Source of the DNA: Chitinophagales bacterium | Lineage (GTDB): Bacteria > Bacteroidota > Bacteroidia > Chitinophagales > Chitinophagaceae | Direction of reading: 5' to 3' | Assembly (NCBI GenBank): GCA_025353485.1 | Contig: JANXQO010000007.1 | Location: 1 to 64,000 of the forward strand | Length of the DNA stretch: 64,000 bases | Part shown: positions 11,352-28,048 of the stretch, one piece after another | Numbering within the stretch: the stretch's first letter is position 1 | Layout: every line of letters begins with the position of its first letter | The notes under the pieces: model-generated | The model's database searches: none | Seen by the model: only the letters and a program-made list of their open reading frames with translations | What the model was told of the DNA's origin: nothing | Translations under genes and position numbers: made by a program

Positions 11352-11421
11352 CGTGAGGCGTGAAAGGTGAAACGTCAAAAGTGAAAAATTTACTCTAACG
11401 TTTCACGTCTGCCGTTTCACG
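11352..11421. repeat. Heptamer repeat H2: cgtgagg cgtgaaa ggtgaaa cgtcaaa agtgaaa ... tttcacg tctgccg tttcacg (inverted)
   Basis: Period-7 units on the left arm, reverse complements on the right arm; occupies the hpt-to-VWA gap. Confidence 0.8.
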
Positions 11422-11436
11422 ATTTAATACCTTATC

Positions 11437-26525: not shown

Positions 26526-27464
26526 ATGACAATTGATGAACTATATAAACATTTTGTTGAGCAATTAAAAATAATTTATGATGAAAGAGAATCTGCCAAT
26601 ATAGCTGACTGGGTTTTTGAAAGCATTACAAATAGTAAAAGGTTAGATAGAATTTTAGATAAACAAAAGCAATTAAGTAATTCAAAAATTAAAGAGTTGA
26701 ATACAGCGCTGCAGAAGCTTTTAGCGCACAAGCCTGTACAATATGTTTTAGGAGAAGCATGGTTTTATAAAATGAAATTGTTTGTGAATGAACACGTACT
26801 GATACCAAGACCGGAGACGGAAGAATTGGTAGAATGGGTGGTAGAAGATGTACGAGGTACGGGGTATGATATACGAAGTGTTGAAGATGTACGAGGTACG
26901 GGGTACGATGTACGAAGTAAGAAATCTATCAACATCCAACATCGTACATCTAACATCGTACATATTCTTGATATTGGAACCGGAAGCGGATGCATTGCTA
27001 TTGCATTGAAAAAAGAATTACCCGATGCAGAAATTTTTGCAATTGATGTTAGCGAAGAGGCTTTACATGTTGCAAAAAAAAATGCAGAAAATAAAAATGC
27101 ACCAATCAATTTTTTGCAAATAGATTTTCTAAATGAAGGATCATGCACATCATTACCATTATTTAATATTATAATTAGTAACCCGCCATACATTCCCGAA
27201 AATGAAAAAAGCAAGCTTGCTAAAAACGTTGTTGACCACGAACCGCATATTGCATTGTTTGTAAAAAATGACTACCCCTTTATTTTTTACAAAGAGATCG
27301 TATTTTTTGCTGAAAGGCATTTAATACAAACAGGAAAAATATTTGTTGAAGTGCATGAAAATTATGCAAAAGAAGTACAACAAATATTTGCTGATAAAAA
27401 TTTTACAACAGAAATTAGAAAAGATATTTACGGAAGAGAAAGAATGGTTTGTGCTTATAAATAA
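26526..27464 (+). CDS. prmC: Peptide chain release factor N(5)-glutamine methyltransferase
   Basis: 312 aa; LIPRPETEELVEW, ILDIGTGSGCIAIALKKELP, SNPPYIP; contains an in-frame ~40 aa repeat-derived insertion. Confidence 0.94.
   Translation: MTIDELYKHFVEQLKIIYDERESANIADWVFESITNSKRLDRILDKQKQLSNSKIKELNTALQKLLAHKPVQYVLGEAWFYKMKLFVNEHVLIPRPETEELVEWVVEDVRGTGYDIRSVEDVRGTGYDVRSKKSINIQHRTSNIVHILDIGTGSGCIAIALKKELPDAEIFAIDVSEEALHVAKKNAENKNAPINFLQIDFLNEGSCTSLPLFNIIISNPPYIPENEKSKLAKNVVDHEPHIALFVKNDYPFIFYKEIVFFAERHLIQTGKIFVEVHENYAKEVQQIFADKNFTTEIRKDIYGRERMVCAYK
26844..26963. repeat. Heptamer repeat H1 (GATGTAC family) in frame within prmC, including a 39-nt tandem duplication and an inverted arm
   Basis: VEDVRGTGYDIRS VEDVRGTGYDVRS; right arm catccaacatcgtacatctaacatcgtacat. 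Confidence 0.9.
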
Positions 27465-27476
27465 TTTATTTCCTTT

Positions 27477-27603
27477 TAATCCCAAAAATCATGGTTCAGA
27501 TAAAAGTAAAACAGAAATTAAAAAAGATATTTACCAAAGAGAAAGAATGATCAAAGCTTATAGATAAGAAATCCTCTAATCTTCAAATCCAAAAAATCAT
27601 AGT
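27477..27603. repeat. Two O1-type arms flanking a duplicated prmC 3' tail
   Basis: TTTTAATCCCAAAAATCATGGTTCAGA (27477-27500) and AAATCCTCTAATCTTCAAATCCAAAAAATCATAGT (27570-27603). Confidence 0.7.
27499..27567 (+). pseudogene. Duplicated prmC 3' tail (SDKSKTEIKKDIYQRERMIKAYR*)
   Basis: Compare prmC C-terminus ADKNFTTEIRKDIYGRERMVCAYK* at 27393-27464. Confidence 0.85.
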
Positions 27604-28008
27604 TTATTTTTGCCCTGCAACTGATGCCGATGTTGTGGCTCCTAATTTTTTTGCTATCTGCATTACTCTTACAATATCGCCCCAGCTAACTAATGAATCA
27701 GCGTTTACAACAACAGCTGGTTTTATGCTGTCACCTGCATGTATGTGGCCTCTCAGCGCAGACTCAAGTGAATCAAAAATAATTTTATGCTGGCCAACAT
27801 AAATATTTTTATTCTTATCAATACTTACAATTACGCTTTGCTTTGCTTTTGCATCGCTTTTTGCTTTTGGATTGCTTACTCTTATCACATTTGGATTAGC
27901 TAAAGTAGAAATTATCAAAAAGAAAAACATGAGGATGAATAATATATCATTCAGCGGACCGGTATCCAGTTCTGCATGTTGTTCCTTCAATCTTTTTCTT
28001 AAACTCAT
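27604..28008 (-). CDS. Biopolymer transporter ExbD/TolR-like
   Basis: 134 aa; LDTGPLNDILFILMFFFLIISTLANPNVI, typical ExbD N-terminal TM; follows exbB-like gene. Confidence 0.88.
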   Translation of the reverse strand: MSLRKRLKEQHAELDTGPLNDILFILMFFFLIISTLANPNVIRVSNPKAKSDAKAKQSVIVSIDKNKNIYVGQHKIIFDSLESALRGHIHAGDSIKPAVVVNADSLVSWGDIVRVMQIAKKLGATTSASVAGQK

Positions 28009-28013
28009 TTAAA

Positions 28014-28048
28014 GTTTGTAGTTTATAGTTGGTGGTTTGTAGTTTACT
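28014..28048. repeat. Heptamer repeat H3: gtttgta gtttata gttggtg gtttgta gtttact, 5 nt upstream of the exbD-like start codon
   Basis: Five consecutive period-7 units. Confidence 0.75.

Follow-up and report, generated by a model that had tools for sequence, protein, structure and literature searches.

A probable copied heptamer-hairpin element read in frame within the prmC gene of a Chitinophagales bacterium

How does the gene of a conserved methyltransferase come to carry, in frame, a block of 7-nt repeats that runs first in one orientation and then in the other? The question is raised by a 64,000-nt stretch of DNA from a Chitinophagales bacterium (hereafter the window), in which the plus-strand ORF at 26526–27464 encodes PrmC, the release factor N5-glutamine methyltransferase (312 aa). 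This assignment is carried by an equivalog score of 240.8 bits for NCBIfam TIGR03534 (cut-off 199.1), by an NPPY motif and by the fold, the best structural match of the AlphaFold model being E. coli PrmC (2b3t, TM 0.82/0.92). Between LVEWVV and ILDIGTGSG, residues 107–146 (26844–26963, plus strand) form a run of 40 extra amino acids, EDVRGTGYDIRSVEDVRGTGYDVRSKKSINIQHRTSNIVH, identical to the sequence given by the first-pass annotation. They are encoded, as that annotation claimed, by GATGTAC-family heptamers: the units follow GAWGTNN, the left arm is GATGTAC-like, and three or more units stand in tandem, above chance. The 39-nt (13-aa) tandem duplication that it described is best placed on the plus strand at 26841–26879 and 26880–26918 (36 of 39 positions identical) and, starting from 26841, takes in flanking host sequence too; the first copy, a left arm, is private to this genome and the second is the left heptamer arm proper. 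TRF shows the 39-nt period with 94% matches together with periods of 7, 14 and 21 nt. After a short spacer the same family follows on the opposite strand (26930–26963, by unit search), which is the inverted arm also seen at first pass. Just 3' of prmC, at 27507–27567, lies a second copy of the 3' end of the gene (TEIKKDIYQRERMIKAYR, then a stop), which also adjoins prmC in G008, a sister species.

Mean pLDDT in the AlphaFold model is 90.6, and values are about 95 in most of the core; over residues 111–140, in the loop between helix 96–111 and strand 146–150, block means are 43–57. The model thus places the insert in a disordered loop, in agreement with the surface loop for which a structure prediction had been proposed as a check, and, together with the open frame and the housekeeping role of the gene, supports the view that the insert is tolerated in an essential-type gene. 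This tolerance would be explained by units that are stop-free on both strands, a length that is a multiple of three, and the disorder of the loop; freedom from stops on both strands is a property that GATGTAC shares with about half of all heptamers. In the insert, dN/dS is 0.45–1.03 against 0.18–0.23 in the PrmC core, values that are based on few codons.

The same insert is present in the orthologues of two sister species, G015 and G010 (EDVRGTMYDVRSKKSLNISHPTSHIVH and EDVRSTIYDVRGKSPVNIIHQTSDIVY), and therefore is not an assembly error, the possibility raised at first pass; for the same reason we reject the idea that it is unique to this genome or has only just jumped in. Neither orthologue has the 13-residue duplication, and the 39-nt duplication is missing from G008, the third sister species, as well. 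At exactly the same spot, G008 has another heptamer family, GAAATWA on the left and GCAACTC-like units on the right; in the tree this species groups with G010, weakly (83/78). In a further genus (G033), prmC contains a near-perfect hairpin of GGTTACA-type units. Most other orthologues have the short linker said to be normal for PrmC, so that conservation of the insert in distant genera lacking the repeat, which would argue against a repeat origin, is not what the alignment of orthologues reveals. We saw no empty site in a close strain and no target-site duplication, the nearest genomes being only ~75–92% DNA-identical over the compared stretches.

The PrmC linker is recurrently filled with differing heptamer families across Bacteroidota. 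In 104 Bacteroidota prmC genes, which are not phylogenetically independent, so that the counts serve as a description and carry no p-value, 27 period-7 arrays lie in the linker (23 genes; 7,509 bases) and only five in the other 83,720 bases read from these regions; that is, 8% of the bases hold 27 of the 32 arrays. The linker arrays represent about 20 different units, and their named hosts include Muricauda, Flavobacterium and Mucilaginibacter. Other periods in the same linkers give counts of zero (period 5), two (period 6), three (period 8) and zero (period 9). The majority of arrays fall short of two 21-nt protein-level repeats, suggesting that it is the DNA, not the protein, on which the period acts.

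Within the window, a second element at 36245–36434 belongs, as previously proposed, to the same family, both consisting of GATGTAC-like units and then inverted units; its left arm encodes the signal peptide of a TPR-type gene on the minus strand, its right arm lies upstream of the start, and both G008 and G010 have the element at this place. This signal peptide is hydrophobic (MKKTFLTSYILHRTSYILFFLLLTSYIATAQ, 36246–36311), conserved in the same two species and itself spelled in GATGTAC heptamers. An intergenic hairpin of another family, CGTGAAA (11352–11430), is in place in G015 and G008, and a GTTTGTA array (28013–28045), just upstream of the minus-strand gene at 27604–28008, is conserved in G008 and G010. 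An array at 1559–1583 lies in a signal peptide and has the same length in G008, perhaps by chance. Period-7 arrays of the insert's strength number six in the window, compared with a total of one in 20 first-order Markov copies, and there are almost no arrays with periods of 5, 6 or 8–11.

In contigs of this genome that were chosen arbitrarily, the density of period-7 arrays is 33 per Mb, whereas a third-order Markov copy has none, and a 21-mer pattern has 45 matches genome-wide against none for its reversed control. GATGTAC arrays fall into 33 clusters within 0.66 Mb of sampled stretches, about half of this length having been picked for such matches. Families including GATGTAC, GTTTGTA, GGCAATT, GGCAACC and CGTGAAA coexist, and in the two-armed elements of GATGTAC, GTTTGTA and CGTGAAA the unit search gives one order, unit and then inverted unit. 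In-frame arrays are found in LpxB, SucB, an RsmB-like protein, TilS, glutaminyl-tRNA synthetase (GlnRS, by NCBIfam), PdxJ, a carbamoyltransferase of the N-acetylornithine type (score just below the family cut-off) and urocanate hydratase (HutU); many coding cases are one-armed, and intergenic heptamer hairpins occur as well. GATGTAC itself is patchy (9 of 41 genomes, one of them in another genus), and the excess of period 7 recurs in named Bacteroidota contigs, where 1.37 Mb holds 43 period-7, 16 period-8 and six period-6 arrays. A degenerate signature shared by all heptamer families was considered and rejected as too weak (PWM 3.95 bits; shuffled 3.62 +/- 0.13, top control 3.89). In G022, from another genus, a 14-nt composite unit (TACGATGTGGGATG) makes up many arrays (contigs C16, C78 and others). 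Other short interspersed repeats have many copies in the genus (L083 18401–18446, 12690–12780 and 14015–14145; L105 7845–7891; L089 2319–2366), some of them strong hairpins.

The repeat class to which the prmC insert belongs is widespread, is accepted by essential genes and is repeatedly replaced in place. Arrays in the tilS loop differ among the species compared, and nearly all lpxB units are GGCAACC in this genome (G000) and GGCAACG in G008. In the tilS of G008 (L170), the loop that elsewhere holds heptamers has an 8-nt unit (CCAATCAA, CTAATCAA). The heptamer stretch of TsaD (L083 6989) has an unchanged length in orthologues and is therefore not counted as an insertion; for this stretch and for the one-armed cases, local overwriting fits better than insertion of units. 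Between rpsK and rpsD, a stable hairpin directly follows the rpsK stop in most relatives, being absent from G007, G017, G006 and G004. Its sequence is unrelated between the sister species G000 and G015 (53% identity; 50% when letter-shuffled), while the 74 bases downstream are 96% identical, a pattern that could be due to selection for any hairpin, to a preferred site, or to refilling after breakage. There are no Rfam matches in this region or in the window. Adjoining the heptamer hairpin is a strongly conserved hairpin, GGGTRCATCATTAATTTTTGATTTTTAATGATGATGYACC (L079 2302–2375, minus strand, before rpsD; also L288 and L291–L312), in which relatives show changes on both sides and GATTTTT may form a pseudoknot with AAAAAATC; we regard it as a candidate S4 leader, one with no Rfam match in its own genome.

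Taken together, we think it probable that the prmC insert is a copied heptamer-arm hairpin element that keeps the reading frame open and that PrmC tolerates in a flexible loop. In such elements a small number of tandem 7-nt units would be followed by a short spacer and then by the inverted form of these units; they would exist in many sequence families in Bacteroidota and would multiply within a genome by copying. At prmC, the insertion lies in the stretch coding for the loop from the helix after the PRPETEE motif to the first strand of the methyltransferase domain, and it would be transcribed and, in vivo, translated as part of PrmC, presumably without benefit to the host. After insertion, coding constraint would have been relaxed, with duplication of the left arm here, decay of hairpin pairing in relatives and, in one relative, a swap of the units for those of another heptamer family. 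Because families are common to many loci and the order of unit and inverted unit is constant, copying is likelier than independent slippage alone, and we infer that new sites arise in this way. Of the earlier proposal of a mobile or copied repeat, the copied part is upheld by the families shared among many loci; transposition is not, with no target-site duplication seen, no linked transposase and no reverse transcriptase (zero PF00078 matches in this genome, where controls matched). The heptamer-hairpin repeat is best read as selfish or neutral in nature.

A possible, if doubtful, alternative is local microsatellite birth, in which seeds present by chance in tolerant loops grow by replication slippage, preferably in 7-nt steps, without any movement between loci. 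It would account for the excess of period 7 over other periods here, for the finding of different heptamers at the same site in different species, and for the LpxB arrays, which have switched unit together from GGCAACC to GGCAACG; moreover, heptamers are the most frequent long SSR class in many bacteria, as stated in a passage of PMC4679880 that cites Mrazek 2007. At the same time, eight of 33 arrays in this genome share one unit and five another, which is unexpected under independent births among ~1,170 distinct heptamer classes, and slippage cannot make inverted arms in a constant order.

We consider it unlikely, though worth stating, that a process in Bacteroidota that is independent of reverse transcriptase writes hairpins with a 7-nt period and, at fixed sites, overwrites those already there with another family. 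One example of such a route would be breakage at the hairpin and refilling from a different array; position and shape would then persist and sequence would not. Mobilisation by a Y1/RAYT transposase, the insert being a non-autonomous MITE or REP-like transposon, is in our judgement quite improbable. The palindromic architecture and ten Y1 transposase matches in this genome would suit it, but none of the ten genes adjoins a heptamer hairpin, the loop is not conserved, and the elements show no common termini or target-site duplication, the relatives compared being too distant for a firm MITE test.

Very little speaks for a conserved regulatory hairpin in prmC mRNA, acting for instance by slowing translation between domains. 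The insert region folds at -35.8 kcal/mol in this genome (z -2.0), and z is -2.0 to -2.3 over G000 and G015 and -5.0 in G033; however, the fold is not unusual in G010 and G008 (z -0.4 and +1.1), those of G000 and G015 are weak against synonymous controls, and most orthologues lack the insert. The comparison across these five genomes does not support a conserved RNA role at prmC, and a hairpin very stable in G033 but not in G010 or G008 is as decay would predict. Finally, removal of the insert before PrmC is complete, as an intron, intein or bypass element, has nothing in its favour but insertion in a gene and can practically be set aside, as the insert has no stop codon and no Rfam match, and in four species the frame is intact and indel lengths are multiples of three.

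If the prmC insert is indeed a copied hairpin element, its wider meaning lies in the class: in-frame 7-nt repeats in conserved enzymes, later swapped for unrelated ones, suggest a phylum-wide source of new protein loop sequence. They also present a case in which hairpin position is kept and sequence replaced, testable against both selection and recurrent insertion, and the repeat-derived origin of such loops is worth knowing for the annotators and structure modellers who meet them. In the literature searched, which leaves out most subscription journals, we met no account of heptamer hairpins recurring in frame in Bacteroidota; the nearest is a paper on TAACTGA arrays in a few Bacteroidetes, one set of them within the purC gene (PMC4679880).

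Several known systems share part of this plan. REP/REPIN elements with their RAYT transposase are likewise short interspersed palindromes (PMC2817692, PMC3116915), but they are extragenic, RAYT-linked and without tandem heptamers, whereas here there is no RAYT/Y1 link at ten Y1 genes. In the P6b hairpin of the Nostoc tRNA-Leu intron, degenerate heptamers pair at a fixed position, their motif classes varying from lineage to lineage (PMC3488679), and degenerate heptamers also form the STRRs of cyanobacterial rnpB (Vioque 1997, as cited in PMC2858038); both resemble the prmC insert in this respect and differ in being non-coding RNA, the insert being coding sequence. Like the elements here, the heptameric SSRs known from Xanthomonas (GGGAATC) and from Nostoc (GGGGATT) consist of tandem 7-nt units, sometimes inverted, that stay at the same positions in relatives but vary in length and sequence (PMC4692102). 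They and the TAACTGA repeats are found mainly between genes, and each description concerns a single unit, whereas here many units coexist and recur in frame in conserved enzymes. Rickettsia palindromic elements are short palindromic repeats that have been inserted, without loss of frame, into unrelated housekeeping genes, where they persist as an extra peptide (PMC10969869), and the heptamer element is, like them, a palindromic repeat in frame in protein genes. However, their families are ~100–150 bp long with a conserved encoded peptide, while the arms here are made of 7-nt units in tandem and the family varies between genomes, between genes and at the same site, being replaced in place. By this analogy, the heptamer element is best read as acting like the Rickettsia palindromic elements while being built like the heptameric SSRs.
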